From assembly GCA_964036665.1 (NCBI GenBank), contig OZ038529.1, positions 25,740,060 through 25,804,059 on the forward strand: a stretch of DNA of 64,000 nucleotides. Reading direction: 5' to 3'. The position numbers and the translations under genes were made by a program. Positions 34,051-63,806 of this stretch are shown here, in pieces; the first letter of the stretch is position 1, and each line of letters opens with the position of its first letter. Origin of the DNA: Gordius sp. MW1 (lineage: Eukaryota > Nematomorpha > Gordioida > Gordea > Gordiidae). The notes beneath the pieces are model-generated. The model saw only the letters and a list, made by a program, of their open reading frames with translations, had not been told where the DNA came from and searched no databases.

Positions 34051-34182
34051 CTGGAACGCAAAAGCTTTTCTTCTCAAGGTGGAACATTGGACTGCACTGA
34101 CAGAGAAAATTAACGCAGGAACTATGTTTTGTAAAACTTTGACATTCATCATCTTTTGAACATACAGATCCAGGCTTTTTCC
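34051..34182 (-). CDS. EB/EGF-like module exon e
   Basis: A 132-nt exon, phase 1 at both ends, between acceptor TGTTAAG (34183-34184) and donor CCAG/GTATC (34049-34050). It encodes one module of six cysteines with spacing C-x5-C-x8-C-x4-C-x1-C-x11-C, ending C-V-P. The linker before the first cysteine is basic and Gly/Pro-containing. EB modules occur in extracellular proteins of arthropods and nematodes, where cysteines pair as disulphides. Only 42 nt separate it from exon d, with spacing and phase that keep the frame open. The next downstream exon was not found nearby. Confidence 0.72.
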
Positions 34183-34224
34183 CTTAACAATCACTTTAAA
34201 ATAGTTTTATAAGCAAAACAATAC

Positions 34225-34341
34225 CAACTAAACATCGATCATTTTCAAGGTAGTGACCAATTCTGCATCGACATCTATTTCCATCACAAAAATCGTACTT
34301 GCACTCATGACTTTCATTGCAATTAGCACCTAACTTCTTTT
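34225..34341 (-). CDS. EB/EGF-like module exon d
   Basis: A 117-nt phase 1-1 exon between TTTTTAG (34342-34343) and GTTG/GTATTG (34223-34224). Six cysteines: C-x5-C-x4-C-x4-C-x1-C-x10-C, preceded by a K-K-L-G linker. Its linker and spacing are close to exon b at 63.5 kb (K-K-L-N; same spacing), which supports a common origin by exon duplication. It follows exon c after a 1.96-kb intron holding an RTE fragment and a tRNA-like SINE. Confidence 0.75.
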
Positions 34342-34494
34342 CTAAAAATTATTTAATAAAAATTATAGCATTCTTTATTATCCAATACATAGTTATATAT
34401 TGAAAGATTTAACGCTGTGTTTATTCAAATAACTTTTATTATATAAGATGATTTATGTTAATCATATAAAGTCGTTAAATGTTTTGCCTCATTT
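34342..34494. other. Intronic spacer
   Basis: Short AT-rich sequence between exon d and the divergent RTE fragment. Confidence 0.4.
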
Positions 34495-35640
34495 TTAGCT
34501 TTCACATAAGCCAATATGGGTTCTTCATTTCTGTTGCCTGACCATAATTTGTAAAGCTTTCTTTTTAACTTGACTAGGCGTTGCACATCTTCGTTCCACC
34601 ACTATGTCTCCTTATCCTTTTCTATACTTGTTTACCTTCTCCTAGAACACATATCGCTACTGATCTTAACGTGTTAGCTATTTGATTCCACAAATCATTA
34701 GCATTCTGCTGATCATATATCTGCAAACGTTTATTTATTTCATAGTTATAAAAAACTTTAAAGTGTGGTAGCCTAAACCATTCAATTTTCCCATCTAGAC
34801 TCACTTTTGTGTTTTAGCCACGGAGATGACTTAGTCCTTCACAATGAGTCTGTGTTGGGCTGAAATAGCCTCAACGGATATAAGCTTACAATCAATGCAC
34901 ATTTTATGATTCCTTTCTTGATATTAAAAGGAAATTGATCTGCGAAAACCGACTCCACATTTGTATGTTATTAGGTGATTTTCATTCTTTTTGAAGAAAG
35001 TATATGTGATGGCCAAATCAAATGACACAGCTATTTTTAATATTGCGTCGCCTTCATCGTTTCTCGATCCGTATCCATGACCATCATGATACCGTTCAAA
35101 TCCTTCTCCTGATTTGCTCACGTGACCTTTCATATCCGTATACAATTATAACTATCTCGGCTCTGGGTATCATGCGCAGCGTTTCGTCTAATTCTTTCCG
35201 AAAGTCATCCTTTTCTTTATCTGAGCATCTAATTTGCGCAGCATAACCGACCACTATATTAATCATATGAAATTCTATGCAAAGTTTAACATCATGAGTC
35301 AGCCATTTTTTCTTCGTACCTAAATGACTTTATCTTGCAGATGCAAGGCTAATATGATTAACTGAATTAAAGTTTGTAGTCTTCATCTATCATTGCTTTT
35401 GCACCTTTCCATCTTGTTTCTTGTATACGTGGTATGTCGACCCGTTGCGTGCTGAGGGTGTTAGCAACTTGGCATTTTTCAGTCATCTTTCCTACATTTA
35501 GCGGGCCCACTCTCAATCTTGTCTTTAGCACATTAGTTTCTTTAATTATATCCGTTTGCGGAACATGTAGTGACCCTGGTTGACTTTGCACATTATACGG
35601 GCGCCCACCATGCGCGTCGTTTACGCAGGACACCCTATCG
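34495..35640 (-). mobile_element. Divergent RTE LINE fragment
   Basis: Minus-strand endonuclease and linker of an RTE-type element clearly different from copies A to C. Motifs: RVGPLNVGKM and IQETRWKG (about 35520-35400), a glycine-rich GYGSRNDEGDAIL-type region (about 35070), AICVLGEGK (about 34640) and a W-W-N-E linker (about 34590). Stops and frameshifts throughout; the reverse transcriptase is missing. It lies in the intron between EB exons c and d. Confidence 0.7.
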
Positions 35641-35742
35641 CTTTCATTGCTTTTATTGTAAACTTTTATATAGAGGAATTAGATCAGGGGTAACGCTCAG
35701 GCTATCCAGGCCTGACAGCCGTGCTGACGTTGTGAGATATTT

Positions 35743-35832
35743 TAATCTTTGAAATAAGTGCCAGCAAAACTGAACCTGCAAGCTTGTGCTTCAAAGACCA
35801 AACATATACCCACTAGGCCACCACGCCCCCTA
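35743..35832 (-). repeat. tRNA-like SINE head
   Basis: The minus strand reads GGGGGCGTGGTGGCCTAGTG at its start, with an A-box-like GTGGCCTAGTGGGTA and a B-box-like GCAGGTTCA about 40 nt on. This is tRNA-derived SINE layout; the cloverleaf is not intact, so a working tRNA is unlikely. Confidence 0.55.
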
Positions 35833-36297
35833 TTTAATAAATTTTATAGTGTGATATATAATTTTTAATAGGGCCCTCTTATTTAAAAGGTAGGCCCAGC
35901 CAGGATTCTATAGCCTCTGATATTTAAGGTCATGGGCTTTGAGCCGTCCCTACAGGTCTCAAAGTACTCATATTGTAAAAATGCCTGTGTTTTTTTTGTC
36001 GACCTTTGGTTTTACTAAGACTAACGGCCGACTCTAGTCTGTTTTTAAAATATTGACTAAACCTAGAGGTCGAGCAGGAAATTTGACCAAAAAACCTGTA
36101 ATCTGTTAACTCAAACCAAACGTTGATCAAACACAAAACCTAATTGTTTTTATAACACTTCTAGGTACAACTAGCATTTGTTCGTAGGCATATGTTTAAC
36201 ATTTATGCAATTTCATTAAAAAATCTTAATTTGCTTTTTAATAAAAACAAAATATCGGTCTGTTCTCCCCTTATCCCCAATATAAATAGATGTTTAC
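35833..36297. other. Intronic sequence, no gene seen
   Basis: AT-rich region between the SINE head and exon c; no further module or splice pair was recognised. Confidence 0.4.
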
Positions 36298-36426
36298 TTG
36301 GAACACAGAACTCATCTATTCGGTAGGTGTTAGAGTTACATGCACATAATTTTCTTTTAATATCGCACACTGTAAAATTTCTTGATGCACAATCGCTATT
36401 TGATTCACAGGTAGAATTGAATATAT
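36298..36426 (-). CDS. EB/EGF-like module exon c
   Basis: A 129-nt phase 1-1 exon between CCTTCTAG (36427-36428) and CCAA/GTAAAC (36296-36297). Six cysteines: C-x5-C-x7-C-x6-C-x1-C-x10-C, ending C-V-P like exon e. Continuous translation past either border runs into unlike sequence, and both borders fit GT/AG rules. The upstream neighbour in the window is exon b, 27 kb away. Between them lie three complete retrotransposons (RTE copy B, RTE copy C and gypsy-2) and many repeats. Confidence 0.75.
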
Positions 36427-36924
36427 CTAGAAGGCATAATACATGCAAAAATATTTTGGGATAATAGGGAGTAATAAATTAGGTTCGAAACAGGCTAAAT
36501 TAAACTTATGCTTCCAATCGAATGCGATTGTGTAACTTAATAACATATCGTGGATTTTCTCATATAGTATTGCAGAAAACTATAAAAATTAAACACTAGC
36601 TCTTATCTAATTAACCTAGATTGCAGCTTATCTTATTAATTGCATTGTTAAATGTTAATTGTTTACTTTAGAAAAATTATATATATTTTTTAATAACTTA
36701 ACATTTTCACTTAAATAAATATAACAACTTAAAACCTATTTCGGCCTATTGGTTGAAATGCCTTAGGCGAAATACACCATGCTGAGAATATAAATTTGCA
36801 TCCTTGGAGGCCCTTTGATGTGATTAAATAATATTATATTAGAGTCAAAGATATTCCTTATTTTCCATGTAGATCATTTTTGTTAATTTATGAATGGTTT
36901 ACGTTTATAAATACTATCAAACTC
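36427..36924. other. Intronic sequence, no gene seen
   Basis: AT-rich; no recognised element. Confidence 0.4.
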
Positions 36925-37100
36925 GTCAAGGGCGTAGCCAGGATTGCCTCAAGGGGGGGGGTTTCAAAAAAACTTATTTAGTAATACTATTAAAAAAATT
37001 TAACGGGCCCCCCGAGGAGATGGGGGTCTGGGGCCGGAGCTCCCAACGGGGGTCTGGGGGCGAAGCCCCCAGCATTTTTTCAGTATATATGATTGGTTTT
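36925..37100 (+). repeat. GGGCGTAGCCAGG-type element end with strong GC hairpin
   Basis: Starts GGGCGTAGCCAGGATT, passes a 9-base G run, and ends in GGGGGTCTGGGGGCGAAGCC with a GGGGGC-GAA-GCCCCC stem. Probably a small non-autonomous DNA element; the other end was not located. Confidence 0.55.
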
Positions 37101-37798
37101 TGGTAAAAAATGCATTAATAATATCTTAAGCGACGCAAATTGCAAATAGCTCCTTCCAATTTTTCTGTTTGCGCTAATTAGGGCCATTGTTTAAACTAAA
37201 CACTTGCATTAGCCTTTTAGGCTTAAATCTCCCACCAGAACCAATAATTGTCCTGCCCGGGACCGTTTAAATTAAATTATTAGCCCAATTTCGCCCCGCT
37301 GCTAAAATTTGGCTTGTATCAGCATCTTACTCGTTTAATTTAGAGGTTGAGATAGTTTTTTAGAGAAATAATTAAAAATTAAATTTCTTCTTATTAGAAA
37401 ACACGCACTCGGGACATAAGTATTTTGTAGAAATAATGTTATAATTAGTAGATTTTATCTAAAATTAAATATCAAATTAATTAAGATAATATATTATTTC
37501 TATATGCGCAACACACACAAGACTCTATTAATATTTTTTCCGTATAATTTGAAAAAAAATGCATTTTTTTTTGTGAATGAGGGGGGGGGGGGAGTCGTAA
37601 CCCGAAACCCCCCCCCCCCCCCCCCCCCCTTCCCTACGCACTTGAAACTCGTAAAATGGGATTTTGTATATTAATGTATTTACAACATTTATATTACAAA
37701 TATATAGCTCTTTACATTATTTAATTTATCAAAATTGATAATATATTGTATATAATTAGCTACATTTTATTAATAATCATCATACGAGAGGGGTTATG
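37101..37798. other. No gene seen; paired G12 and C22 tracts
   Basis: AT-rich sequence. A 12-base G run (37581-37592) is followed 15 bases later by a 22-base C run (37608-37629), able to fold back on each other. Confidence 0.6.
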
Positions 37799-38336
37799 AA
37801 TAGTGCAAATGACAAAGATTCCCTTCTCGATATAGAAGTCAAACTCTTTCAGGAGAATCAAGTTAAGACACAAATGAACAAGATGCAAAAAGAAAAAGCT
37901 AATGGCCCACTATGGAAGCATTGCTCGGATGTCGTGAAGAAGGAGTCTCTTCATGACGAACCTCCTTAACAAGATATTGGTAGAAGAGCAAAATTCTAAT
38001 CAATGAAAAGCAGGCACGATTATATCCTTATTTAAAGGCAAAGGAGACCCTCGCCTCGGGACTGTGGCACCTATAGAGGTATCAAGATAACTTGCCACTC
38101 CTTGAAGCTTATAAAGGATCTTAGTAACAAGGCTGAAAAACGAGGTGGAAATATCGGCTAACCAATTTGTATTTGTGGCCGGTAAATCCACAATCGATCC
38201 AATCTTCGCACTAAGACAAATGATAAAAATATGGTGAAAAGAGAAGAGACTTACATATGTATCTTGGAGAAAGTTTTTGACACGGTTCCTCGCGATTCAA
38301 TATGGTGGTGCCTGAGAAAACAAAATATCCCTGACG

Positions 38337-38639
38337 CATATGTAGAAGTTTTGACTTCTACTTTATTATCCTTAAAAGAATCGAAGGTTTAGTGAATTTG
38401 GAAGCGAATAAAAACCGAATTAATTTATTAATTATTTGCGAGTAAAAGTTAGCAAACCATGAAATGCGCAGGAGATAAATATTTTTTAACGCAGAAGATT
38501 AATATATCGAACGCAAAAGATTAATTACGCCGAAGGTGAATATAAGCAGACGATAAATTACATAGAAGGTGAATATAAGCAGACGATAAATTGTATATTC
38601 AAAATAGTAAAATAAAGGATATAGGGGTACCATACATAT
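38337..38639. mobile_element. 293-bp insertion with 5-bp target duplication
   Basis: Sequence 38342-38634 interrupts RTE copy C and is flanked by CATAT at 38337-38341 and 38635-38639. It begins with a perfect stem GTAGAAG-TTTTGA-CTTCTAC and contains a two-copy direct repeat of GAAGGTGAATATAAGCAGAC. A 5-bp duplication suggests a solo LTR, but the ends are not clear TG/CA, so the class is open. Confidence 0.68.
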
Positions 38640-38810
38640 ATACAGTTTATAAAAAGCATTTATGAAGCTTCAAACTCTTGCGTTAGGACGACAGTTGAGA
38701 CTCTAAACCTTTTAGGGTTAATATTAAGTTCCTTTTTATTTAATATAATTATTGACACGATAACGAGAGACATTTAAAAGCCATCGCCATGGTGTTTGCT
38801 ATATGCCGAT

Positions 38811-38959
38811 TAATACAAAGTAGGAATCTCCAATAATTAGTTTATTCAAGGAAGTAAGTAAGTTACATAAGATGCAATTGATTATATTGTCGCATGTTAA
38901 TGCCATGTTGTTTTATGTAAATATGTTTAGGTAATAACATTGTATAATCATTTATTACA
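38811..38959 (-). repeat. 3' LTR of gypsy-2
   Basis: Minus strand starts TGTAATAAATG and ends TTTGTATTA; 146 of 149 positions match the other LTR. Confidence 0.93.
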
Positions 38960-38968
38960 TTTCCCTTC
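38960..38968 (-). promoter_or_regulatory. Polypurine tract of gypsy-2
   Basis: GAAGGGAAA directly precedes the 3' LTR on the minus strand. Confidence 0.68.
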
Positions 38969-38985
38969 GCTAATTTAAGTTAGAA

Positions 38986-39623
38986 CTAAATTTCTTGAAT
39001 AAGCCGCTTAGGAGGATGTATTTCTCGATTTGACCTTCTAGCCCCTGTGCTTTCTGTAACGATATCTTCAACGCCTTCGTCATTGCAATTTATTTCTTCA
39101 TCGCTCTCTTCTCTAACATTCTTGGTTGGCTGGTATCGTTCCCTTAGCTGGTCACTATGCTTTTTCACGGTTCTATTCATCGTATCGACCACGTAGGAAT
39201 AAGGTCCATTTCGCTTAAGGACTTTCCCCAGCCGCCATCCTTTTTTGATCTCATTTTTTACTCATACAGCTTGACCTGGAATAAGCTCTCTGGTAACAGC
39301 TTTGTCCCTTTGCCTGTTTTCACTTTCTCTGTCTTTTGTTCTATGTAATTGCCGACTGTTGGTTGTATCCAATCGAGTGAAGTTTTTAGGTTTCTCCCCA
39401 TCATCACTTTCGACGGCGTTCTCCCAGTTGATGAGTGTTCACTGATTCTATACCCCATCAACACGTCAAGCATACATGACTCGGGATCTTTGGTATATTC
39501 CCTGCATGCTTGATATCTGCTCTTTATAGTTCTAATAGCTCTTTCCACCAATCCATTTGTTTTTGGATGATATGGCGTAGATCTGATGTGTTTTATGTTT
39601 AAAGATTTGCAAAATTGTTCCAT
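38986..39623 (-). pseudogene. gypsy-2 integrase, C-terminal half
   Basis: 39623-39258 continues the core after the stop at about 39637, with STPYHPKTNGLVERAI carrying the catalytic Glu, then a GYR-x-S region. A frameshift follows, and 39192-38986 holds the tail with a DQLRERY-type end and a basic/acidic C-terminus. Together these complete the integrase, but in two frames. Confidence 0.82.
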
Positions 39624-39638
39624 TTCATAATTTCGAAA

Positions 39639-40650
39639 CTAAGGACCGTTGTCTGTAACGATCTGTTTTGGAACTCCCCATCTTGCAAACCATTGGCGCA
39701 TGGTTTTAATGGTCGTTGTAGTGGTGGAGCTATTTTGTAGCTGCACTTCGACCCATTTTGAATATGAATCAACAGCTATGCACCAAAAATATCCATCTAT
39801 GGGACCCGCGTAGTCCATATGTATACGTTCCCAAGGCTGTTTTGTTACATTCCACGAATACAGTGAAACTTCGGGCTTGTTGCATCTATTTTTTTGACAT
39901 CCGATGCACTTCTGTACGTAGGTTTCAATATCCTTATCTAACTGAGGCCAGGTAACATAAAGTCGTGCAATCGATTTCATTGAACTAATTCCTGGGTGGC
40001 CCTTATGGATGAGTTTTAAAATAGAAAGTCTTAAATAAGTTGGAATGACAAGTAATCCGTTGGCGTAAATGATGCCTTTATCTTCTTCTATCTCATTTCT
40101 TTTGTTATAATAAAAACTTAGTTCTTTAGGTATCATATTTTTGTTCAACGGCCAACCTTTATTTACAAATGTTTTTACTTTCTTTAAAACTTTGTCTTTT
40201 TGAGATTCTTTTATTAAAATGTCCCTGTCTAATTGCATGTCATTGAGATTCAGTATACGAATGTGACTAATGGAATTACTTCTACACTCTTTGATTTCTA
40301 ACTCATTGGCAGTAACTGGAAGTCGTGAAAGTGCATCAGCAATTTTGTTTTCTTTACCCGGAATATACTCAATGGTGTAATCATATGCCGACATCTTCCA
40401 GGCCCATCTAATAAGTCGATTATTGCTTATTTTTGGCAAGTCTCTTGCCTCGCCAAACAATCTTTCAAGTGGCTTATGGTCAGTTCTTAACACAAATTTT
40501 CTCCCATACAAATACATATGGAACTTTTCAACACCATACAGTAGGGCTCTTGCTTCTCTATCAATTGGGGCATAATGCTTTTCACCATCGATTAAAGTTC
40601 TTGAAGCGTATGCTATTGGCCTTTTACCCGAGTTCACTGTGTGATATCAA
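39639..40650 (-). pseudogene. gypsy-2 RNase H and integrase N-terminal half
   Basis: 332 codons open from 40637. RNase H: IAYASRTL, REARALLYG, TDHKPLERLF. A linker with ADALSRLP follows. Integrase zinc domain: HKGHPG, WPQLDKD and C-x2-C; catalytic Asp in HMDYAG and in VTDNGP. The frame ends with TAG right after NGP where Q is expected (a CAG to TAG change). An upstream TGA near 40648-40650 cuts it from the RNase H start (ILECDAF, GFGAV). Confidence 0.87.
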
Positions 40651-41456
40651 ACAGCTCCAAAACCATTTTCGAACGCATCACATTCTAAAATTATTGGAAG
40701 AGATTTTGAATACGGAATTAATGTCGATTGATCGGAGAGCAATGATTTTACTTTCTCAAAAGTTTTTGTGTGCTCTACTGTCCATTCCCACTTGGTTCTC
40801 GTACCAGTCAATTGATGTAATGGCGCTAAGAGACTATGTAAGTGGGGAATAAATTTTTCATGGTAGTTAACAAGTCCTAAAATGATCTCAGTTCATGGAT
40901 GTTTCGAGGTGTTGGACACTGTTTGATTGCAAGTACTTTATCTCCCGATGGACGAATTCCATTTTTATCAATTATGTGCCCCAAAAACGATATAGTGGTT
41001 TTACAAAACTCAACTTTAGAAAGACGAGCTTTCATCCCTGCAGATTGCAGTTTGTTTAGAACTTACTCAGTCATCATAGCCTTTTCCACTTATTATGATG
41101 TCATCCATGTAAACCCCAGTGTTTTCACAGTCTTTTAGAACCTCTTCCATAAACCTTTGAAAAATTAGTGGGGCGCATGACAACCCAAATGGCATTGTTT
41201 TATATTTAAATAGCCCCACGTGTGTCGCAATGACTAGTAATTTTTGGGAATCAATGTGTACAGGGAGCTGTAAATAAGCATCTCGCATATCGATTTTTGT
41301 GTATATTGAACCTCCTTCAATCTTTCCCATGATGTCCTCAAAAGTTGGAATTATTTGAAAATCATTAAGAATGAATTTGTTTAAGGTAACTTTAAGGTCT
41401 GCACATATCCTGATATCTCCATTACTTTTGCGGACATTGACGGTTGGGTACTCCAT
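40651..41456 (-). pseudogene. gypsy-2 reverse transcriptase
   Basis: 41456-41067 has the fingers and palm: RICADLKVTLN, DMRDAYLQLPV, MPFGLSCAPLIFQR and a full YMDD box (GVYMDDIIISG). A stop or frameshift follows at about 41067, and the thumb/connection continues in another frame (FLGHIIDKNGI) with one more frameshift near 40870. The active-site residues are intact although the frame is broken. Confidence 0.87.
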
Positions 41457-42840
41457 GTAACTTGTGTTTCACGTGGATCCACTTTTTCAATTACACCCAT
41501 TTGTAGTAACCTATTTATTTCAAATTCAATTGGTTTTCTTAGTGGAAACGGGACCCTTCTAGCCGGTAAGGCAATGGGTCTAGCATCATCTCTTAATTGA
41601 ATTTTAACCGATATATTCTTAACTGATGCTGGACTTTTCTCAAATAATAACGGAAATTCTTTGTCAAAAGATATTAATGAATTACTATCATATTTAACTT
41701 TCTGAATTTTTACTTCTTGTGGAATATTTAATCCGAATTTTATAACCCATGGTAATCCAAACAAGGGGACATCATCTGTCTTTGTAACCACAGCTGTCAG
41801 ATTATGATTAATTTTACCCATCTGGACATTTAATAATGTTTTGCCCAGTGTTTCTACTGGCTGGTTACCATAAGCTTTGGGAGACATACATTCGGTCAAT
41901 CTGGGTCTGCCAATTTGTTTCCACATTTTAAGATTGATAAGACTAATCTGAGCCCCCGTGTCATATTCCATTATGAAATTTTGACCATTTAATTTAACCT
42001 CTATTGTGGCTCGTTTAGATAATTGACATACACGCTTGATAGAATCACCAGAATCATCATTATCATTTTCGAGAGTCATTTGATTTAATGCACTACGACA
42101 AGCTATAGCAAAATGACCTTTCTTTTGACATCTGAAGCATGTTGCTGTAAAGGCTGGACAACAAAATTTTGCATGTTGTTTTAGACACCTTGAACATTTA
42201 AATAATGTTTTGTTATCATTCTTGTTGTGATCATTCAACTGTTTCTTAGTGTCATATTTTAGTTTAAAAAGTCTTTCCTCAGAATCACCATTTGTCTCAA
42301 CTTCAGCTCTCTCCATACATAAAGCCATATTTATTATTCTTTCAAACGTAAGGGGCTTGCCTTTCTCATCTAGAGTATCAGGATATTTTGTCTTAAGTTC
42401 CATCTCTAGTGGTTTAAATTTAAGGGCAAAAATAAAATGATCTCGGGCTCTTTCATCAAAGTCATGCATGTATGCACATTTACTTAAGCATATTCTAATT
42501 CTTTTTGACAATTCTAAAATACTTTCATTAGGCAATCTGCTTAAGTGTATCAAATCTAACCTATGAGCAAAAATAGTTTTCATTGGTTGATATCTTTGAT
42601 ATAAGGCCTTTTCAAGATTTTCCCATTTAGCATCATTTAAAGTCATGGGATATAAAATTTCCTTCAGTTCCTTGATTATTGGTAATCCTATGTAAGCCAA
42701 AACTATCTTCTTTTTAACTATTGGACTAGATTTAATTCTTTTTATGTCTAGGATGGCATCTAAATTGTACAGATAATCTAGAATGAATTTCTGGATTAAA
42801 TTCCGCCATGGATATTCTCTTCAGTTGCTCATCCATTCTT
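41381..42840 (-). pseudogene. gypsy-2 Gag and protease
   Basis: A 439-codon open frame (42700-41381). Capsid-like helices come first, then two zinc knuckles in one frame (near residues 168-200), then the protease active site EYDTGAQIS and a PLFG flank, then the start of the RT region (ARRVPFPLRKPI). The true start is probably near 42840, in another frame: Gag-like sequence upstream of 42700 is separated by a frameshift near 42780. Here gag and pol are continuous, unlike gypsy-1. Confidence 0.82.
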
Positions 42841-42865
42841 GGCATATATATTTCTAATAGTTTTA

Positions 42866-42876
42866 CTTCGTCGCCA
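42866..42876 (-). promoter_or_regulatory. Primer-binding site of gypsy-2
   Basis: TGGCGACGAAG follows the 5' LTR by one base on the minus strand. It shares TGGCG with the gypsy-1 site. Confidence 0.58.
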
Positions 42877-42877
42877 A

Positions 42878-43026
42878 TAATACAAAGTAGGAATCTCCAA
42901 TAATTAGTTTATTCAAGGAAGTAAGTAAGTTACATAAGATGCAATTGATTACATTGTCGCATGTTAATGCCATGTTGTTTTATATAAATATGTTTAGGTA
43001 ATAACATTGTATAATTATTTATTACA
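42878..43026 (-). repeat. 5' LTR of gypsy-2
   Basis: 149 bp; same sequence as 38811-38959 apart from three substitutions. Confidence 0.93.
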
Positions 43027-43509
43027 CCGATAAAATAGTACTATGAGAGGAAACAAAGGAGAAAGTATTCGAGAAGCCGAAAAGTGGTCAAAGCGCTTAG
43101 CTGGATATGGTTTAAAGGTCAACGATCGAAAAACCGTATACATAGAAATTAACAGTACAGGCAGCTCATCGATGGATGACCATCTCAAGTACTCAAAAGT
43201 AGAAAGGTTTAGATACCTCGGCTTGATGCTACATCAAGAGGGAGGTTGAACAGAAGTCAATGCCCGGATCCATAAGGATGGCTTAAATGGCGAAGTATAT
43301 CCGGTGTAATGTGACAAAAGAAAATGCCAATATGGTTGAAGAGCAAAGGTTACAAATCCATCGTAAGACCGGTCTTACTCTATGGAAGTGAGACATGGGC
43401 ATTGAACACCACGGAAAGAAAGCTATTACAAGCCACCTAGATGAGAAGGATACGGTGAAGCATGGGGTATATTAAGCTCAACCATATGACGAATGACTTT
43501 CTCATGATA

Positions 43510-44343
43510 GAATTAGGCAGAGTTGTTAAACGCACTTCAAAAACCGGTGCCGCACTCGCAATCGCACATTGAGGAAAACCCGGTGCGCGCACTCGCACTC
43601 GCACCAGTTTTAACAAAGGTGCGCGCACTCGCACCAGTATTAAAGGTGCGCATTAATTAGCTAATTTTATATATTTTATTTTAATGAAAATTAATTATAA
43701 TTAGATCATTATATGTGATTAATCTTACGATAGCAAAGATAGGTTTAAAAGTGTTTGGAATATTAAGATAGTAACGGGAGATGACAATATTCCAAAAACG
43801 CTTAATTAAATATATTATCATTATTTAAATATTTTATTGTAATTATTTAATCAAATTACCTGTCTGTATTTTTAATCTTCTAATCTTATTAAACTTTTAG
43901 TGTTTTTCTATAGTTTATTTATTAAGCGACGAGTTCAAAAGTGTAAAGATTAATCGTTGATTGATAAAGTAAATACGTGAATAATGTGAAATATCGCGGT
44001 TAGATTATTTTTATTGTCTATCGATAGTAACCAATTTCCCGCCTTGTTATCTTCTCCACCAGGAACATAGATGTATGTTATATATAGTAAATCAGTAGAA
44101 ATTTAATTTGTGAAATATGCGATATAATACAATTTCGAAATTAATAAATTGTAAAACTCTTAATGTGCGCAAAACAGGAGCGCAATTGCGCACCCGCACC
44201 GCCTTAATCAGGTGCGCGCACCCGCACTCGCTCTTCGTTATAAAAAAGTGCGCGCACCAGCACGTCGCACCGCAAATCCGGTGCGTGCGCGCACCCGGTG
44301 CGCGCTCTTGACGTGCGCGCACCTTAACAACTCTGGAATTAGG
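43510..44343. mobile_element. Non-autonomous hAT MITE with GCGC-rich ends and 8-bp target duplication
   Basis: Element 43518-44335 (818 bp) inside RTE copy C. Ends CAGAGTTGTTAA are inverted; flanks GAATTAGG at 43510-43517 and 44336-44343 are identical. Each end carries a cluster of GGTGCGCGCAC and ACTCGCAC words (43535-43655 and 44165-44325), CpG-rich in contrast to the AT-rich core. No transposase is encoded. Confidence 0.93.
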
Positions 44344-44612
44344 TATTCAACCTATGGCGGACATGATTAACAAAAATCGGCTAAGGTGGTATGGTCATAT
44401 ACTAAAAAGGGACACGAATGACGTAAATCGAAAAGTTCTGGAAATGGAAGTACCGGGAAAGGGAGGAAGAGGACGACCTCGTGTCACGTGGAAAGGGCAA
44501 GTCGTTATGAAAACTAAAAAGATTAGTCAACATGGCACTAACCTGGTCAAGATGGAAGAAACTTATCAAAACGAACCCCACGAATGTGGGATCAAATAAT
44601 TGATAAAGAAGA

Positions 44613-50030: not shown

Positions 50031-50079
50031 TAGTTATAGGCCCTTGTAGGGTAGGACATAGGGTAATTATCAATGTTAA

Positions 50080-52925: not shown

Positions 52926-52984
52926 ATGATATTTATAAGGGAGAAAAAAACGTGCGAATGAGAAATTGTGCTTAAGGGTTATTA

Positions 52985-53720: not shown

Positions 53721-54205
53721 ATTCTAACCCCAAAACTAGTTAAATTGCGTAGCAATTACCAAAATTTAAATATAGATATACTTATGCATTAATTTAACGT
53801 AGCAATTAATACCCGACCCCGCCCGAAAGCGAGGGAGATAGAGATGAGGGGTGGGGCACCTCTTTTTCATGCATTAATTTAAAAAATCGATAACCTAGTA
53901 TACCCAATGCAAATAGATAGGGAGGACGGACAACGGACGGACGGACAACCAAAAACGATCCCATAAATTGCATAGCAATTAAAAATCAATATTAAAAGAT
54001 AAATAAAAGGTTCTGTAATTCCACAGTCGGGATTATTTATTATTTTAAAGCGCTCGGGCCTTACCCAGGGTTTATTAATTGCTATGCAATTTATGGGCTC
54101 GCTTTTTGTTGTCCGTCCGTTGTCCGTCCAACGTCCTGACTTGCTGGTTCGATACCCGAAGAGGGCAAAATTTTTTTTAAATTAAATTAATATATTGTTC
54201 TTGTT
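53721..54205. repeat. Family Z tails in both orientations
   Basis: Two oppositely oriented tails with GGACGGACAACGG and its complement plus ATAAATTGC-AGCAATTA, meeting around 53990-54060. Between them are short AT-rich stretches. Confidence 0.65.
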
Positions 54206-55049
54206 AATACTGTCATATACTTATGACTACTACTTCTGGAATTTCCGGTGTTCGAAGGTTCAAACAAGGGTATTATCGATGCCAGGTGGTGGAAATTTAC
54301 CAATCGGCGTATAAGAAAGGCACTGTGAAAGTTCTGAAGAAGGGAAAACAATAAAAGCATGTTTGGCGGCGCAGGATAACTCAAAGATATGTCTAGAAAG
54401 GAAAGGGTTATAAAATCGAGTCTCGGCAGTGATGGCCCGAAATCGATTCCAGACGAAGGGTAATAAAATCAAGTCTCGGAAGTGATGGCTCCAAAATCAA
54501 TGCCAGACGATAAAGGCAGATAAAGTCGATCGAGCGGAACGGATACGCCTCATGGACACGATACAATATATAAGCAAGTTACAAACGACCATAAAAACAC
54601 TTTTACACTTTTACTTTTACTTTTTAGTCGCTCTCGTACTATTACTTACGCCTGTTCTTGTCCATGTTTACGTTCGATGCGCCCATAACTTACTTGTATT
54701 TTTCCCCCGCCTGAAATAACCGTCTGTATTGCACATATTATTTCCTGTGGATTAAATTGTATGGTAGTTTACGCATAACCAAATATTAGATTGTCGAAAG
54801 TGGTCCCCCAAATCCCCTTTCTCACATTTATTATTACGCTGATTGTCGTCATTTGGAGGAATTCTTTACAATAAAATTCTGTCATAGAATACTGGTGGCT
54901 ACTACTATATTACGCCCAGGATTATTTGTTGAGGAATTCTCAGTTAATTAGTCCGTTCAAACGTACAGTGATTTTGGTCCTCAGTTCTCAAAACTTAGCC
55001 CCCGAAACCAACCGTCCCCACAAATTAACCCCCCGAACTTGACAAATAC
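54206..55049. mobile_element. Solo LTR, 834 bp, with 5-bp target duplication
   Basis: 54211-55044 starts TGTCATA and ends TTGACA, with matching short inverted ends TGTCA/TGACA. It is flanked by AATAC at 54206-54210 and 55045-55049. It interrupts a family Z copy whose halves join cleanly around it. Inside are TATATAAG at about 54568, AATAAA at 54870-54875, and a 54-bp tandem duplication (about 54405-54511). No coding sequence. It is unrelated to the short gypsy LTRs of this window. Confidence 0.82.
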
Positions 55050-55416
55050 CATTGATAATATGACTTTTTGGCCGTCCGCTGGCTACTGACCAATGAAAAA
55101 AATGACCATTGGCCAAATTGTGATTCGAATTTTTCGTTTTTGTTTTTGAATTGGTATATTAGGTTAACATTGATAATTACCCTATGCCCTCCCCTAGAAG
55201 GGCCTATGCCTCTACTGATAATGGGTCCTTGTGCCCCCCCTTCTACAAATGCCTATGCTTCTACTAATGTGGGTTCGAATACCGAAGAGGGCAAATTCTT
55301 AATTGCTGGTTTGATACCCGGAGAAGGCAAAATTATTTTTTTAAAGTAAATTAATATGTTGTTTATGCAAATACCATTGATAATATGAATTTTTGGCCGC
55401 CAACTGGCTACTGACC
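55045..55416. repeat. Family Z copies with B-box-like motif
   Basis: Contains AATACCATTGATAATATGAC, GGCTACTGACCAATG and GGTTCGAATACCGAAGAGGG (B-box-like). It is the target into which RTE copy B inserted. Confidence 0.65.
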
Positions 55417-55430
55417 TTTCTTCTTCTTTA

Positions 55431-57457
55431 TCAGTTATTTTGGTCCCACATTCGTGGTGTTTGTTTTGATAAGTTTTTTATCTTGACCGGATGAGTGCCA
55501 TGTCTTGACCAAACTTTATCGACTTGCCCTTTCCACGTGACACGGAGTCGTCCTCTTCCTATCTTCCCCGGTACCTCCATGTCTAGTACTTTTCTATTTA
55601 CGTCATCCGTGTCCCTTCTTAGTATATGCCCATACCACCTTAGCCGATTTTTGTTAATCATGTCCGCCATAGGTTGAATACCCATTTTTGTCATGGGAAA
55701 GTCATTCGTCATATGGTCGAGCTTCGTATACCCCAAGCTCCACCGTATCATTCTCATCTCTGTGGCTTGTAATAGCTTTCCTTCCGTGGTGTTTAATGCC
55801 CATGTTTCACTTCCATAGAGTTACACCGGTCTTACGATGGATTTGTAAGCTTTGCTCTTCAACCATATTGGCATTTTCTTGTCGCACATTACACCGGATA
55901 TACTTCGTCATTTAAGCCATCTTTTTTGGATTCGGGCATTGACTTCCGTTGCGCAACCTCCCTCTTGATGCATCGAGCCGAGGTATGTAAACCTGCCTAC
56001 TTTTGGGTACTTTAGATGGTCATCCAGCGATGGTGTGCTTGTACCGTTCATTTCCATGTATACCGTTTTCCGATCGTTGACCTTTAAACCATATCCAGCT
56101 AAACGCTTTGACCACTTTTCGGCTTCTTCGAATAATTTCTCCCTTGTTTCCTCGCATAGTACTATATCATCGGCATATAGCATACACCATGGCGATGGCT
56201 TTTGAATGTCCCTCGTTATCGTGTCTATAATTATATTAAATAAAAAGGGACTTAGAGCAGAGCCTTGATGTAATCCTATATTAACCCGAAAAGGTTTAGA
56301 GTCTCCAACTATCGTCCTAACGCAAGAGTTTGAGGCTTCATAAATATTTTTCATAAGCCGTATATATGCGTCAGGGATATTTTGTTTCCTCAGGCACCAC
56401 CATATTAAATCGCGGGAGACCGTTAAGCTTTCTCCAAGTCGATAAAAACCATATGTAGGTCTTTTCTCTTTTCACCATACTTATCCATCATTTGTCTTAG
56501 TGCGGAGATTAGGTCGATTGTAGATTTGCCGGCCACAAATCCGAATTGATTAGCCGATATATCCACCCGTTTTTCAGCCTTGTTACTAAGATCGTTTCCA
56601 TAAGCTTCAAAGAGTGGCAAGTTAGCTTGATTCCTCTGTAATTGCGACAGTCCTGAGGGTCTCCTTTGCCTTTAAATAAGGGTATGATCGTGCTTGCTCT
56701 CCATTGATTAGGAATTCGCTCTTTCAATAACTTGTCAAGGAGGTTCGTCATGGAGGTGACTCCTTCTTTACGACATCCGAGCAATGCTTCTATGGGTAAT
56801 CCATCTCGGCCATTTGCTTTTCCTTCTTGCATATTGTTCATTTGTGTCCTAACTTCATCCTCCTGAAAGAGTTCGACCATACTTATATTTGGCTCAATTT
56901 TGGGAACTAAATCCTTGGCATTTGCAATATTAATAAGTTTCTTAAAATATTCTTTCCACCTTTCCATCACTTCTTTCGGCTTGAATAAGGTTTGACCCTT
57001 CTCGTTTTTGACTATTTTAAGAACTCCGACATCGCGACTTTTCTTCTCCCTTATCTTGGCCAATTTGTACATAAGCCTATCGGCCCCTTTATGATCCCGT
57101 TTATAAGCCATCTGAGTGTACGCGGCATTCTTCGCTTTTGCTACGGGCTTTTTTGTGGCCCTCTTTGCGTCCCTATACTCTTGATAATTCTCCGACTTTT
57201 TGATTTATGTCACCGTCTATATAGACTTTTCTTTCTTTCGATGCAATCTTTAACCGATTGATCCCACCACCATAGTTCCGTATTCATAGCTTTGCCTCCT
57301 TTGGTATGTCCTAGAACACGAATCGCTGTTTCCTTAAGGTCCTTAGATAGCGTTCCCCAATCGTCGTCTACGTCCTTTGGCAACTTCCTTGCACCCAAGA
57401 GTGAGGACGCTTTTGATGGTATTCTTCTTTCGCCGACGTATCCTTTAGCCTTTCGTA
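55431..57457 (-). pseudogene. RTE copy B linker and reverse transcriptase
   Basis: Pieces in order: linker with RVLGHTKGG and WWWDQ (57461-57210), fingers (57111-56509: NGRDGLP, W-x-S-TIIPLFKGKGD, NYRGIKL), NQFGFVAGKSTIDLI and VFIDLEKA (56620-56423), and palm (56354-55908) with GLHQGSALSPF, LYADDIVL, GYGLKVNDRKT and YLGSM. The tail 55757-55431 has RWYGHILRRDTDD and GRGRLRVTW. Frame breaks occur near 57180, 56560, 56410 and 55900. Confidence 0.88.
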
Positions 57458-58210
57458 TCAAATTCGAGGTTCATTTACCTTTCTTCTATCGGGAAATACT
57501 CTTCTGTCAAGATCCATAACAAGAAAACGATGTTGCCTGGCGATTTCTTCTACCGGTATTACTTTGCAATCCTTGATACTCCATAAGTCCTTTCGCCGTA
57601 TAGGCAAATAGTCAATTTGACTAAAATGCTTCCCACTTCTATAGGTCACAATATGATCTTCGCGCTTTTGAAAATAGGTGTTAACGATCGCCATGTCATA
57701 TGCCTGGGATACTTGGAGAAGTTTTTCCCCTTCTTTGTTCTTCAGACCATGCCCATAGCCTCCATGATTGCGTTCATACCCGAGGCGGTATTTTCCTACG
57801 TGAGCGTTGAAATTGCTTCCAATAATTAGCCTTTCTTCCGGTCGGATTCCTTGTATTTCCTTTTCCAATAAATCGAAGAATATGTCTTTATCTGATTCCA
57901 TACACCCAATTTGGGGAGCATACGCGCACATAACGGTTAGGAGGCCCCCTTGATCTGAAATCTTTACCCACATTAGCCTGTCGGAACAACGGTTGACTTC
58001 CACCACCTTGTCCTTAAACGATTCGCTTAGAACGATACCGACCCCGTTTCTACGATTTGGTGACCCACTGTAGAAAAGCTTGTATCCTTCTCCTAACTCC
58101 CGGGCTTTGGTTCCGTTCCATTCTATCTCTTGTAGCAGGCGATGTGTACCTTTCTTCTTTTTAGCATTTGTGCGACCTCGATGCTCTTCCCTGTCAACGT
58201 TCCCACGCAC
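57458..58210 (-). pseudogene. RTE copy B endonuclease
   Basis: 250-codon open frame. The first part (to about 58110) is out of the true frame, as comparison with copy A shows: a base is lost near QETRW. After that the true domain runs: NGVGIVL, SDRLMW, LIIGSNFNAHVG (D-L-N-A-H of copy A reads N-F-N-A-H here), SQIDY and RQHRFLVMDLD. The first residue of the D-x-N-A-H motif is Ser-Asn here, which may weaken metal binding. Confidence 0.83.
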
Positions 58211-58447
58211 GTTATTCGGATTCTTTCAACAACTAATTTCCTTAACCGCCTTTGTTGTGAGTTGGGCAGTAACCCTAGTGTATTTTTCACATTGCACGGG
58301 CGGGGTATGCAGTGCGCATCGTTTCCCTAGCCTTTTCTTGTAAAATCTTGTTTGAAACTATCATAATTTTGGAGTTGGTTTTTATAGCCGGTTTCCGACC
58401 TGACGCCAACCCTCCACTTTTTGCACACGGACTTGGGACCATCGTAG

Positions 58448-59260
58448 ACTGACCAATAAAAAAATGACCATTGGCCAAATTGTGATTCGAAATTTTTTTT
58501 TCGTTTTTGAATTGGTATATTAGGTCAACATTGATAATGACCCTATGCCCTCCCCTAGAAAGGCCTATGCCTCTACTGATATGGGTCCCTGTGCCCCTAC
58601 AAAGGCTTATGCCTCTACTGATGTGGGTTCGAATTCCAGCGAGGGAATTCTCAATTGCTGGTTCGAATCCCGGAGAGGGCAAATTTTTTTTTAAATTAAT
58701 ATATTGTTCTTGTTAATACCATTGATAATATGACTTTTTGACCGTGTCCTGGCCACTGACCAATGAAAAAAAATGACCATTGGCTAAAGTATAAATGGAA
58801 ATTTTTTTTCCATTTTTTTTCGTCTCTTATGTATTTGTATCCTTTTTGACCGTGTCCTGGCTGCTGACCAATGAAAAAAATGACCATTGGCCAAAGTATA
58901 TCAAATTTTTTTCTATAATTTAAATATAGACTATTTGGCAGTCTGCTGGCTGCTGACCAATAGGAAAAATGACCACTGGCCAAAGTCGGATTAAAATCGA
59001 TTTTTTTTCTAGATTATAATTAGAGGCTAGTTATTTGGCTGTCTGCTGACTATTAGAAAAAATGATCACTGGCTAAAGTTTCTAGATTATATTTATAGGC
59101 TATTTAGCCGTCTGACCAATAGAAAAAATGGCCAATGGCCAAGGCCTGATTGGATAATTTTTTTGTTTTTTGAATATCTTGTTTATACTATTAATTTATG
59201 GGCTCGCTTTACGCTGTCCGTCCGTCCAACATGTATCTTAATTGCTGGTTCGAATATTAA
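58448..59260. repeat. Family Z array, further copies
   Basis: Several Z cores in a row (ACTGACCAATGAAAAAAATG at about 58450, 58756, 58866, 58955, with weaker ones at 59050 and 59112), a B-box-like GGTTCGAATCCCGGAGAGGG at about 58663, and the GCTCGC/GTCCGTCCGTCC tail near 59205-59225. Confidence 0.75.
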
Positions 59261-59401
59261 CCCATTAAAACCTGAAAATAAAACCCCTCGATGAAAAAAC
59301 TTTAAATTTTAGATTTTTCATTAATTTTATAGCAAAATAACATCTGCAATTTTTTTTTCGAAAAAACAATTCTAACTATAGTTAGAGAGCGTCGTATATA
59401 T

Positions 59402-60186
59402 CACTAGTTAAGCCCGGCAAACGTTGTTTTGCCATATACATTCGGGTTGAAAATTTCAAAATGCTTTCATGTCGGGTTGGGTTCAATTTAAAGTGTCGAA
59501 TCAAAGGTTATGAAACTTACATTACAAAATACACGGGACATATCTATTTTAAATTTATAAATAAATATTAGACTTATACATTTTATATATTGAAATGGGG
59601 CACGAATTTTATAACGTCATGGATTTTATGAACCCATTATTTTTAGTATATATATAATAAGACAAACCAAATGCAAATTCTGTTTTAGTCATCAAATCCG
59701 ACTAAAATTAAATGTTTTTGAAAAAATTGCTGATTAATGCTGTTAATTATTATACAATAATAGCATTATATTATTTTTCTAGTCAGCTGATTTATTTGAA
59801 ATACAATTTTCTTTAATATAATAAAATAATTAATTCAAGGATGAATGGATAATTATTAAAAATATGTTTCTATGATCGACCACGTGATAATAATGGCAAA
59901 AATAGCATAATTTAAATTTTATTTATTTAATTTAAATAGTTTGTTAAACCCCAATAATTTTGACCGTACACTGTAACATTTTTATTATACTTTTAAATAT
60001 TTAATTCGAGAAAACTTCAGCCTTGTATGTATGACGTCATTATTGTATATGATGCTATAAATGAAACTGGCCGGGAAATGTCCAATAAAACGAAAAAGTA
60101 TTTTAGGAATCTGAAAAAGCTATTTTACCCCTGGCCGCCCTGGGCATCTACGGCTAAAGTTTCGCGCGAATCGGGCCTGTAAGCCC

Positions 60187-60188
<2 letters not shown>
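59402..60188 (+). repeat. Family X copy 3, interrupted
   Basis: Begins CCCGGCAAACGTTGTTTTGCC (near 59412). It is interrupted at about 59443 by an end of the CGGGTTGAAAATTT hAT-type family (to about 59530, with AT-rich sequence to about 59790), then resumes with ACAATTTTCTTTAATATAAT and the CCCTGGCCGCCCTGGGCATC core. Its end runs directly into the microsatellite. Confidence 0.72.
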
Positions 60189-60217
<29 letters not shown>

Positions 60218-60707
60218 CATACATACATACATACATACATACATACATACATACATACATACATACATACATACATACATACATACATACATACATACAT
60301 ACATACATACATACATACATACATACATACATACATACATACATACATACATACATACATACATACATACATACATACATACATACATACATACATACAT
60401 ACATACATACATACATACATACATACATACATACATACATACATACATACATACATACATACATACATACATACATACATACATACATACATACATACAT
60501 ACATACATACATACATACATACATACATACATACATACATACATACATACATACATACATACATACATACATACATACATACATACATACATACATACAT
60601 ACATACATACATACATACATACATACATACATACATACATACATACATACATACATACATACATACATACATACATACATACATACATACATACATACAT
60701 ACATACA
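60189..60707. repeat. (ACAT)n microsatellite, about 130 units
   Basis: 519 bp of what looks like an uninterrupted ACAT repeat. The three long minus-strand open frames in it translate to a monotonous M-Y-V-C repeat and are not genes. Confidence 0.98.
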
Positions 60708-61003
60708 ATTTAATTTTGCTATAATCCGAAGATGTCCTTGAATAGGACGAAATATTATTATAATAATTATAATTATTTTTTAACTCCCTCTAATATTCCT
60801 GTTGACAATAAATCTCTTAAAATTATTCTAATACCTTCTTGTAATAATTTAAAATATTAAAATGAATGAAATCTAAATCAATTTTTTTTTTCTCTAGGAT
60901 CAACACCCCCACCCCCACCAGTCGCCCTATATTCATAATTTTAAAAACAAAATCTTTTATAATCATTTTCCTAATTTGATGGCATATTTATTCGATAGAC
61001 TTC
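60708..61003. other. No gene seen
   Basis: AT-rich. TTTTTTTTTCTCTAG at about 60885-60899 looks like a splice acceptor, but the frame after it closes soon. Confidence 0.4.
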
Positions 61004-61270
61004 ATGGAGTTGATCAAAAAGATCAACAACACTCTTCCCATTCCTTTGCTAGATCTTATTCCTTCTAATCGATTTTTCCAAAGCAACTCAGAGAGTAAAA
61101 GGATTAATAAAGAAATTGTATCCATGAAACGTGAATCGCGTATATGGACAGAAAAAAATGGCGGGGTTGAAGTTGTAGCGCGTATTAAGACGGAGCCTAA
61201 CTGTGAGGGAGGGGAAGCTGTTACTAAATTTCAACTCGTACGTAACTTGTTAATACGCATCTTAACTTAA
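61004..61270 (+). CDS. Unrecognised open frame, possible exon
   Basis: 88 codons of non-repetitive, charged sequence (many K, E, R, N). Open upstream for eight more codons, back to a stop. A possible donor (CTC/GTACGT) lies at about 61240. Composition is more protein-like than neighbouring shadows, but no domain is recognised. It would lie on the strand opposite to the EB exons. It could be a fragment of an unknown mobile element. Confidence 0.28.
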   Translation: MELIKKINNTLPIPLLDLIPSNRFFQSNSESKRINKEIVSMKRESRIWTEKNGGVEVVARIKTEPNCEGGEAVTKFQLVRNLLIRILT

Positions 61271-61329
61271 CCTATATTTTAATCTAACCCATTTATCAAT
61301 TTTTTAATTTAGTCAAGTTTTATTTTAGG

Positions 61330-61865
61330 ATTTGCAATGTATCTGACTTGCTGGTTCGATACCCTGAGAGGACAATTTTTTTTTAAATTAAATTAATATA
61401 TTGTTCTTGTTAATACCATTAATAATATGACTTTTTGACTGTGTCCTGGCTACTGACCAATGAAAAAATGACCATTGGCCAAAATGTGAATCGAAATTTT
61501 TTCTTTTCGTTTTTTAATTGGTTTATTAGGTTAACATTGATAGATATCCTATGGCCCCCCCCCCATACAAGGGCCTATGCCTCTACTGATATGGGTCCCT
61601 GTGCCCTTACAAAGGCTTATGCCTCTACTGATGTGGGTTCGAATCCCGGCGAGGGCAATTTTTTTTTTTTTTTATTATTTAATTAATATATTGTTCTTGT
61701 TAATACCATTGATAATATGACTTTTTGGCCGTCCGCTGGCTACTGACCAATGAAAAAATGACCATTGGCCAAAGTGAGATTAAAAACAATTTTTTTCTTG
61801 ATTATAATTATAGGCTAGTTATTTGGCTGTCTGCTAACCATTAAAAAAAATCACCACTGGCCAAA
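61330..61865. repeat. Family Z copies with B-box-like motifs
   Basis: Two or three cores (GGCTACTGACCAATG at about 61448 and 61738) with GCTGGTTCGATACCCTGAGA at about 61350 and GTGGGTTCGAATCCCGGCGA at about 61632, the latter a good B-box match. Confidence 0.72.
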
Positions 61866-61874
61866 GTGATGGAA

Positions 61875-62065
61875 AATTTGTATATATAATTAACTAATCA
61901 TTTTGCATTTAATACCCACCTATAGGCATTCACGCCCCTTCCCACCTTTCTCGCCCATAAATTGCATAGCAAATATGCTACTTTTATACGGAGTATAGAT
62001 GAGTTTCGTTCCCCCTTCCCTTCCACTCTTTCCCCTTCCCCTTTCCACGAGGGCCAAAGGCCCGA
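61875..62065 (-). repeat. Dispersed repeat family Y, copy 3
   Basis: Reverse complement of copies 1 and 2, including CTATACTCCGTATAAAAGTA, GCAATTTATGGGCGAGAAAG and the purine-rich block at 62005-62050. Confidence 0.75.
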
Positions 62066-63454
62066 GTTATATTTGTAACAGTCGGACTAATTGACTTAAA
62101 GAGGCCCGTTTAGGTCGTTAATTTTTGCAGGCTCATGTGTAAGTCGAGGGTAACGTAAGAGAAATCTAAAATATGGGAACATAATATAAAAGGATACGAG
62201 TGTAAGTAAATTATAAATATACAAAGGATTACCTGATTATTGAGTCTTATAAATGGCTATAAAGCCATTTACCTCTCCCCACTCGTGTAAAAATTTAAGT
62301 CCGGCCCGCGAAGAATGCGCGCTACTCCACTGAATATGATTTAGTTAGATTTTTATAGAAATACAATGGGTACACACTCTAAACTTGGTGCTAAATGGCA
62401 AACTCTTAAGCTTATTTTCAATATGTAGCAAAGTCCGCCTTCTATTGTTACAAGTGGTCAAAAATACAATCCTTAAACCCCTTGTTTATTTTTTATTTTG
62501 CTCGATTTTAGGTGCTAAACAAGACAAACATTTTTGAATTTACGAAGTTCAAATTTATATTTAAAATCTTATTTTTATTTGTTATCTGTCTCCCAAAAAT
62601 GGTGCAATGCTTTAACCTTATCGTATCCCATAACATGCCTAAAAATCTGTTTAAAGCGATAGCTATATCTAGATCAATCAGACAACTCTAAAATGGTCCA
62701 AATAAACATATTTCAAGGTTTGAGGGTTTTGGGGTTATTTTGTAGTTAAATAACAATTTTGATAAATGAATCCATGGCCTTTATTATTGACACCATACAT
62801 ACTTTAAAACAATTAAAAAAGAGCCAATTTTTTATATTCTGATGTGGTGTGCGGCCACTAAAGCCGGTTATCTGGTTACTTACCTTGCCCAACGCCCGCG
62901 TTCTCGCTCGTAAAGCAATATTAGATAGCTCTCATATTTAGTTTACTTAAAAGATTCCCTTAGTGCCACTTATAATTCACATTTTGATCATATCTTTACA
63001 AGCCCGAAATTAATAAATTGTTGTTCAGAAGTGAATATTAAAGCTAATGGTACAGTGCGCTTAAATATTCCACATGCCCCTTAATCGATATAACATCTAT
63101 GAAAAATCAATATGATTTACTTCGAAAAATAATATTAACATAATGGCAGTACGTCAATAAAATGAATTTATAGACGACGTAGATCTCTATAATTAAATTT
63201 TTGATTTTAAAAGAATATTTTTCGGGGTAGAAAATGATACTTCCCATAAGTTGGATTAAATGTCGCTTATAAAATCCCTTCCAGCTCTATTGTCCTGTGA
63301 AGAAAATCATTAAACTCTGTAGTTTTTAAAAACAAGTTTTTCAAAATTATTTTCTAGAATACGGTCGACTCACTAAATAAACTTCTAATCCTACATTTAC
63401 CATTGTACCTGTGAAGTTAATATCTTTAATTATATTTTGTCCTGAATTGCTTAC
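62066..63454. other. No gene seen
   Basis: Mostly AT-rich, apparently non-repetitive sequence. No further six-cysteine module was recognised. On the gene model this is the start of the 27-kb intron after exon b. Confidence 0.4.
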
Positions 63455-63571
63455 TTTTTAGACACTTAACACTATCATCCACATACCCATAGGGACAAAC
63501 GCATTTTTGATCCGAGCAGACGTTAGTTTGGCAGTGGGTATTTTCTTGGCAATTTTCATTTAGCTTTTTTT
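63455..63571 (-). CDS. EB/EGF-like module exon b
   Basis: A 117-nt phase 1-1 exon between TTATTAG (63572-63573) and AAAA/GTAAGC (63453-63454), the latter a strong donor. Six cysteines: C-x5-C-x4-C-x4-C-x1-C-x10-C, identical spacing to exon d, with a K-K-L-N linker before the first cysteine. A 112-nt intron separates it from exon a, and the joint keeps one frame. Confidence 0.77.
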
Positions 63572-63683
63572 CTAATAATTAGTCATCAATATTTTGTATA
63601 TAATAATCTGAAACAGTATCAATTTTTTAAATAGCGTTTAAACAATTTGTTAGCTAATAGGTTCTAGGAATGTTATTTATTAC

Positions 63684-63806
63684 TTTTTTTGCACCAATAA
63701 CCATCTTGGTAATCTAACGCCCAATTACATTGGCATATTCTGTTTACACACCATGAGTCTCCTGCGCAACCGTCGTCCACTTCACACTCCTGACCTAAGG
63801 TATTCC
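63684..63806 (-). CDS. EB/EGF-like module exon a
   Basis: A 123-nt phase 1-1 exon between ATTAAG (63807-63808) and AAAA/GTAATA (63682-63683). Six cysteines: C-x5-C-x5-C-x4-C-x1-C-x11-C, with several aromatic residues. It is the most upstream exon visible; the gene's start, signal peptide and promoter would lie beyond the window's right end. Confidence 0.75.

Follow-up and report, generated by a model that had tools for sequence, protein, structure and literature searches.

The 64,000-nucleotide stretch of DNA analyzed here (the window, C3:25740060-25804059) comes from the hairworm Gordius sp. MW1 and lies near the right end of contig C3, in a genome of 211.8 Mb assembled in 12 contigs. It carries five exons for EB modules on its minus strand. 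On the full reading that we propose, and that we hold with good though not complete confidence, these exons are part of a 13-exon gene for a type I membrane protein, which belongs to a set of seven found at chromosome ends. The copies would combine variable outer modules with a constant stalk and tail, and exon-sized gene conversion would pass sequence between them.

An ordered set of EB exons at contig ends

A genome search with the seven EB modules of this gene recovered the full set of seven exons, always in one order, at seven ends that belong to six contigs (C1 right, C2 left, C2 right, C3 right, C5 right, C6 left, and C8 right), and the unplaced contig C10 (32.5 kb) holds a fragment with exons 1 to 4. 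The right-end copies are on the minus strand and the left-end copies on the plus strand, and therefore all seven are oriented for transcription away from the end. In C8, exon 1 lies about 179 kb from the contig end, and in the six other copies 18 to 42 kb. All 53 EB exons that were checked (seven exons in each of seven copies, plus the four of C10) are open, equal in length for a given exon, and bordered by AG and GT, and in all 53 the six cysteine columns of the exon are invariant. The intron between exons 6 and 7 (34183..34224 in the window, 42 nt) keeps a length of 40 to 42 nt in each of the seven copies, while the remaining spacings differ by kilobases from copy to copy. With seven full EB sets confined to chromosome ends, the gene has the distribution that marks a subtelomeric family.

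Two explanations would remove the family altogether. The preliminary description of this DNA had itself raised the first, in which the exons come from several separate short genes or from a repeat dispersed throughout the genome. Introns of up to 27 kb that contain mobile elements would suit such a reading, but the seven exons keep their order, strand, and consistent phases at seven ends, and other places in the genome have only weak EB similarity to them. The ordered set recurs at contig ends alone, and we ruled out this explanation, to which we give very little probability. It is even harder to credit that the copies are an assembly artefact, that is, haplotypes or misplaced ends distributed over different contigs. 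Very similar stretches do exist, and exon 8 is identical in C3 and C8; against this, the copies lie on different contigs, have separate exon sequences, and differ by up to about one substitution per intron site (the C3 right and C5 right copies), and TTAGGG repeats close contig C3, as read in its final 1,500 bases (open frames suggest about 10 kb of repeat). The TTAGG repeat is common at arthropod telomeres; a search with the TTAGG pattern gave 0 matches here, TTAGGG being present instead.

The five EB exons of the window are each in phase 1-1, with AG before and GT after, and each encodes one module with six cysteines that include the C-x5-C and C-x-C spacings. Exon 3 (63684..63806, 123 nt) encodes module 3, which is fast evolving and mosaic between copies; a 112-nt intron separates it from exon 4 (module 4; 63455..63571, 117 nt). 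An intron of 27,028 nt (36427..63454) follows, with reverse-transcriptase frames of the Gypsy type and the LINE (long interspersed nuclear element) type and with repeat stretches. Exon 5 (module 5; 36298..36426, 129 nt), exon 6 (module 6; 34225..34341, 117 nt), and exon 7 (module 7; 34051..34182, 132 nt) are the three under purifying selection. Within the 27-kb intron, the long repetitive stretches at 46000-48300 and 60100-60790 have repetitive frames that are open on both strands.

The preliminary description had been made from the letters of this window, and the five segments that it listed were all recovered where it placed them. A pattern search of the window returned five minus-strand matches, all with phase-1 borders, and none on the plus strand; the chance expectation, taken as the mean over 100 first-order Markov null sequences with both strands counted together, is 0.03 matches (maximum 1, with none at phase-1 borders). 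The description had called the modules EB/EGF-like, and a check with profile hidden Markov models upheld the first half of that name. The spliced 13-exon model scores 89 bits against PF01683 (EB), for which the cut-off is 24.3, over seven stretches, so that all seven modules match the family model; all seven exons also have the six cysteines in the C-x5-C ... C-x-C ... C spacing. As single queries, the exon pairs 3-4 and 6-7 reach 40.6 and 41 bits, and exon 5 alone stays under the cut-off at 19.2 bits. EGF identity was ruled out, as no EGF family in Pfam matched the window exons or the spliced model at E ≤ 1. EB apart, no Pfam family matched the spliced model at that threshold; exons 3-4 gave one sub-cut-off match, to Dickkopf_N (19 bits against a cut-off of 25). 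A search of EB modules 6-7 against solved structures gave no matches.

A gene model of 13 exons over 117 kb

The EB exons are most likely parts of one 13-exon gene for a type I membrane protein, because seven of them share order and orientation at seven contig ends despite very different spacing, and because their borders are conserved. The gene model was built by comparing the copies within the genome. Spliced, it has 594 codons and a stop codon with all phases matching, and it spans 116,937 bp, from 97566 to -19370 in window numbering continued beyond both edges. The predicted protein consists of a leader, a short N-terminal stretch, seven EB modules with one exon each, a juxtamembrane region, one transmembrane helix, and a tail rich in tyrosine and acidic residues. 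We infer from the sequence that splicing and translation proceed as modelled and that the protein is placed at the cell surface. The preliminary description had assigned the five exons to one extracellular protein; the single gene stands, and a type I membrane protein now appears more likely than a simply extracellular one. The whole window (1..64000, minus strand) falls inside the modelled gene, and the Gypsy-type, LINE-type, and hAT frames found in it are therefore intron content, as that description had supposed for the mobile elements.

All exons of the model are encoded by the minus strand. Beyond the right edge of the window, exon A (97511-97566) carries the start codon, followed by a hydrophobic leader that we take as a putative signal peptide, and exon B (97420-97466) adds 47 nt; both come from a block conserved between C3 and C6. 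This leader block is found at four of the seven ends (C3, C6, C1, and C8), each time on the telomere side of exon 1. The C3 copy of exon B differs strongly from the three others, which are nearly alike. EB exons 1 (94510-94638, its border chosen by conservation) and 2 (70316-70450) also lie to the right of the window. Downstream of the EB exons, exon 8 (22205..22323, phase 1-0), which is not EB, begins the juxtamembrane region; it was found by comparing C3 with C2 left and occurs at the same seven contig ends and nowhere else at E ≤ 1. Exon 9 (1865..2084, phase 0-1) encodes the remainder of that region and is separated by a 34-nt intron from exon 10 (1717..1830, phase 1-1), the candidate transmembrane exon, whose frame has a 19-residue hydropathy maximum of 2.92 followed by the basic stretch RFKERLITK. 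Exon 11 (-19370 to -19024, left of the window) encodes the tail and ends in the stop codon. In the genome search, exon 9 and the tail exon appear in order at all seven ends; a clear, separate row for the transmembrane exon was obtained at five of them, and in C5 and C2 left its row is merged or weak. None of the seven tail copies is interrupted by an internal stop codon, and their identity to the C3 tail is 53 to 97%.

Other arrangements were considered and set aside. Exon 8 might have been the last exon, as a stop follows soon after it in five copies; no such stop is present in the two copies that have diverged most, which read GTAAGT there, and exons 9 to 11 are found at the same ends. When C3 was compared with the 67-88.5 kb stretch of C2 left, exon 8 was the one exon recovered, because exon 9 sits at 116 kb there. 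Downstream of exon 8, C2 left has conserved blocks that are non-coding repeats, one of them bounded by TTAA, and a weak tblastx match upstream in C2 left was not upheld when the sequence was read. A non-coding repeat bounded by TTAA is seen at two chromosome ends, at -32206 to -32784 in window numbering and at C2:73375-73950. A SEA domain was suggested for the juxtamembrane region by likeness to the eye alone and was rejected, as neither Pfam nor PDB gave a match at E ≤ 10.

Several features of the model tell against it. The DNA search located no leader block at C2 left, C2 right, C5 right, or C10. A query of exons 8 and 9 together drew no match at E ≤ 10, either from Pfam or from solved structures. 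Exons 9 to 11 were chosen by eye, before the genome search, from 142 unmasked minus-strand frames downstream. Three of the inferred introns are very short (34, 42, and 44 nt), and the acceptor of exon 11 was inferred from phase, with an alternative AG 40 nt upstream that suits another phase.

Selection and probable conversion along the protein

Codon models were fitted to exons 1 to 7 of the five closest copies, those at the right ends of C3, C2, C8, and C1 and the left end of C6 (C3R, C2R, C8R, C1R, and C6L). The C5R and C2L copies were excluded because their synonymous sites are far diverged, and C10 because it has no exons 5 to 7. The ratio of nonsynonymous to synonymous substitution rates (omega), fitted as a single value per exon, is 0.55, 1.18, 1.75, 1.10, 0.17, 0.16, and 0.08 for exons 1 to 7, respectively. 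For exons 5 to 7, omega is significantly below 1 (0.13 for the three modules together), and site models find no positively selected class in them; modules 5 to 7 are under purifying selection. For exons 1 to 4, single omegas do not differ from 1. A site model of these four exons together favors a positively selected class (p=1e-5), and for exons 2 and 3 with a separate tree per exon, M2a is preferred to M1a (twice the log-likelihood difference 20.1, p=4e-5), with 31% of sites at an omega of 6.8. When C10 was added to the run on exons 2 and 3, M2a was favored again (p=2e-6), with an omega of 1.05 over all sites. Among 60 null simulations the largest statistic was 8.75, and none reached the observed value. 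Judged from these aligned copies, a contrast in selection between exons 5 to 7 and exons 1 to 4 is shown. For modules 2 and 3, the site model favors diversifying selection and the single-omega tests do not.

Exon 2 can also be compared with the introns that surround it. Between C3R and C8R, it differs at 27 of 135 positions (20%), against 3 of 158 in the 80-nt flanks (p=2e-7) and 17 of 573 (3%) over all intron sites compared. An excess of exon 2 over its nearest 80 nt is significant in four of five pairs (C3R-C8R, C3R-C2R, C2R-C8R, and C1R-C6L). Exon 3 is a mosaic. Of the sites that divide the five copies two versus three, those joining C3R with C6L number 8 in the exon and 1 in its flanking introns, and those joining C1R with C6L number 26 in the flanking introns and 1 inside the exon; moreover, exon 3 is less diverged than its introns in C3R-C6L and C1R-C6L. 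Because of this mosaic, gene conversion probably contributes, and sequence would then be exchanged between chromosome ends.

The case for diversifying selection meets several difficulties of its own. The single-omega tests for a value above 1 are not significant (p=0.75 for exon 2 and p=0.26 for exon 3). In C3R-C6L the exon 2 excess is not significant either, and intron sequence farther than 80 nt from the exon exceeds exon 2 in divergence (20 to 38%) in C3R-C2R and C2R-C8R. Exon 3 is significantly more diverged than the adjacent introns in none of the five pairs. The codon models and trees come from scripts of our own, the simulated fits had fewer iterations and starts than the observed fit, and conversion between copies or recombination can inflate site-model tests.

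These points bear on a rival explanation in which the amino acid excess of modules 2 and 3 arises from conversion with diverged copies or from relaxed constraint, with no selection for diversity. The mosaic of exon 3, its divergence being no greater than that of its introns, and single omegas not significantly above 1 all suit this account. Nevertheless, the cysteines are kept in every one of the exons checked, the site models favor omega above 1 even with a separate tree for each exon, and conversion should import synonymous changes too, yet the exon 2 differences between C3R and C8R comprise 23.5 nonsynonymous changes (of 106 sites) and only 3.5 synonymous changes (of 26). We consider this explanation rather unlikely and retain selection on the outer modules, with conversion adding to it, as the better account.

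A candidate recognition receptor and its relatives

A cell-surface receptor is the most likely function predicted for the protein, given that a leader and seven small disulfide-type modules are followed by a juxtamembrane region, a single helix, and a tail that is conserved. Since some outer modules change from one paralogue to another and the inner modules do not, the outer ones probably contact a changing partner. In the mechanism that we propose, the modules far from the membrane (2 and 3 most clearly, 1 and 4 in part) would form a variable ligand-contacting face, and the modules near the membrane, the juxtamembrane region, and the tail would form an unvarying stalk and signalling part. Conversion of exon-sized tracts between ends would add variation, and the changing partner of the variable modules might be an arthropod-host molecule, a microbe, or another worm.

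Two other roles have to be weighed against this receptor. In the first, the gene encodes a variant surface protein facing the arthropod host; its copies would provide the parasitic stages with alternative antigens or adhesins, and their variation would serve evasion or host specificity. Judging by the available part of PMC10900676, the position at chromosome ends, the several diverged copies, and the site-model signal resemble such families, and the available part of PMC5763927 reports that Anisakis transcripts with EB modules are up in the PX sample in both species. There are just seven copies, however, and the tail, about 115 residues long, is conserved and has weak relatives at other genome positions, which points to signalling and not to display. 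We regard this role as possible, on balance doubtful. In the second, the variable modules would diverge under sexual or self/non-self selection as part of mate, gamete, or self recognition. Variable distal modules on a constant stalk and tail would fit, but nothing specific favors that reading, and we judge it unlikely.

The tail itself has weak matches at 15 further places in the genome (E from 1e-5 to 0.86, most above 0.01). Eight of the 15 lie in C1 26.75-27.09 Mb, and the others include C4:5588173, C4:14405562, and C6:3.03-3.11 Mb; the match at C4:5588173 is on the same strand as, and downstream of, EB matches at C4:5592440-5601750. This pattern suggests a wider receptor family sharing one tail. 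A separate EB locus is seen at C5:6316312-6346863, where at least 54 of the at least 76 EB matches of the genome fall within 30 kb, mostly as one module per phase-1 exon, and which possibly encodes a giant EB protein.

Among the open-access papers listed by our searches, we found no family with seven single-exon EB modules, a juxtamembrane region, a helix, and a tail at chromosome ends, nor anything on a hairworm subtelomere, nor, by title and opening of the abstract, any positively selected receptor gene family of Nematomorpha; such blanks are weak evidence of absence. Two Anisakis EB proteins have three to five modules, as reported in PMC5763927, and thus differ from the seven-module protein described here. 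The nearest animal case that we found is that of the chromosome-end families of Schistosoma mansoni, as far as the accessible part of PMC10900676 describes them. Like the hairworm genes, they are multiple copies at chromosome ends of an animal, in repeat-rich surroundings, with expansion by interchromosomal exchange; unlike them, they include a 49-copy plexin-domain cluster among others, whereas the hairworm has seven copies of an unrelated EB receptor-like gene with exon-dependent selection.

Protists are known for variable gene families at chromosome ends, such as the subtelomeric var and rif families. The hairworm genes share that position and differ in being few, in having 13 exons over 117 kb, and in belonging to an animal genome.

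The same assembly offers observations outside the gene family. Contig C12 (14.8 kb) carries mitochondrial genes, and within 4.3 kb of it (C12:2609-6946) there are seven inverted-repeat pairs with arms of 26 to 108 nt, six of them fully complementary; five of the seven lie inside the sequence that we identified by eye as nad1 and atp6. The long perfect inverted repeats in mitochondrial genes that characterize Nematomorpha, nad1 and atp6 included, are thus present in this worm. The part of PMC6649704 available describes palindromes in mitochondrial coding sequence in four species of the phylum, with shared ones in nad1, atp6, and nad5. Nuclear copies of mitochondrial cox1 are many, on C1, C3, C4, C5, and C8, some of them as repeated pairs on C4.

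As a more tentative extension, to which we give well less than even weight, hairworm chromosome ends may house a small system of receptors for recognizing the host or non-self, in which variable EB modules are swapped by exon-sized conversion above a constant stalk and tail. It would be an animal counterpart of the subtelomeric variant genes of protists. Nematomorpha are known for steering their hosts. If the reading is right, the genes at these ends would be, as far as the open-access literature searched shows, a first handle on a fast-evolving, recognition-type gene family in this phylum. They would also be a receptor-like addition to the chromosome-end gene families of animals, of which few have been described. 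Their paralogy would also offer a ready contrast between a constant stalk and tail and a changing outer face, with sites for testing.

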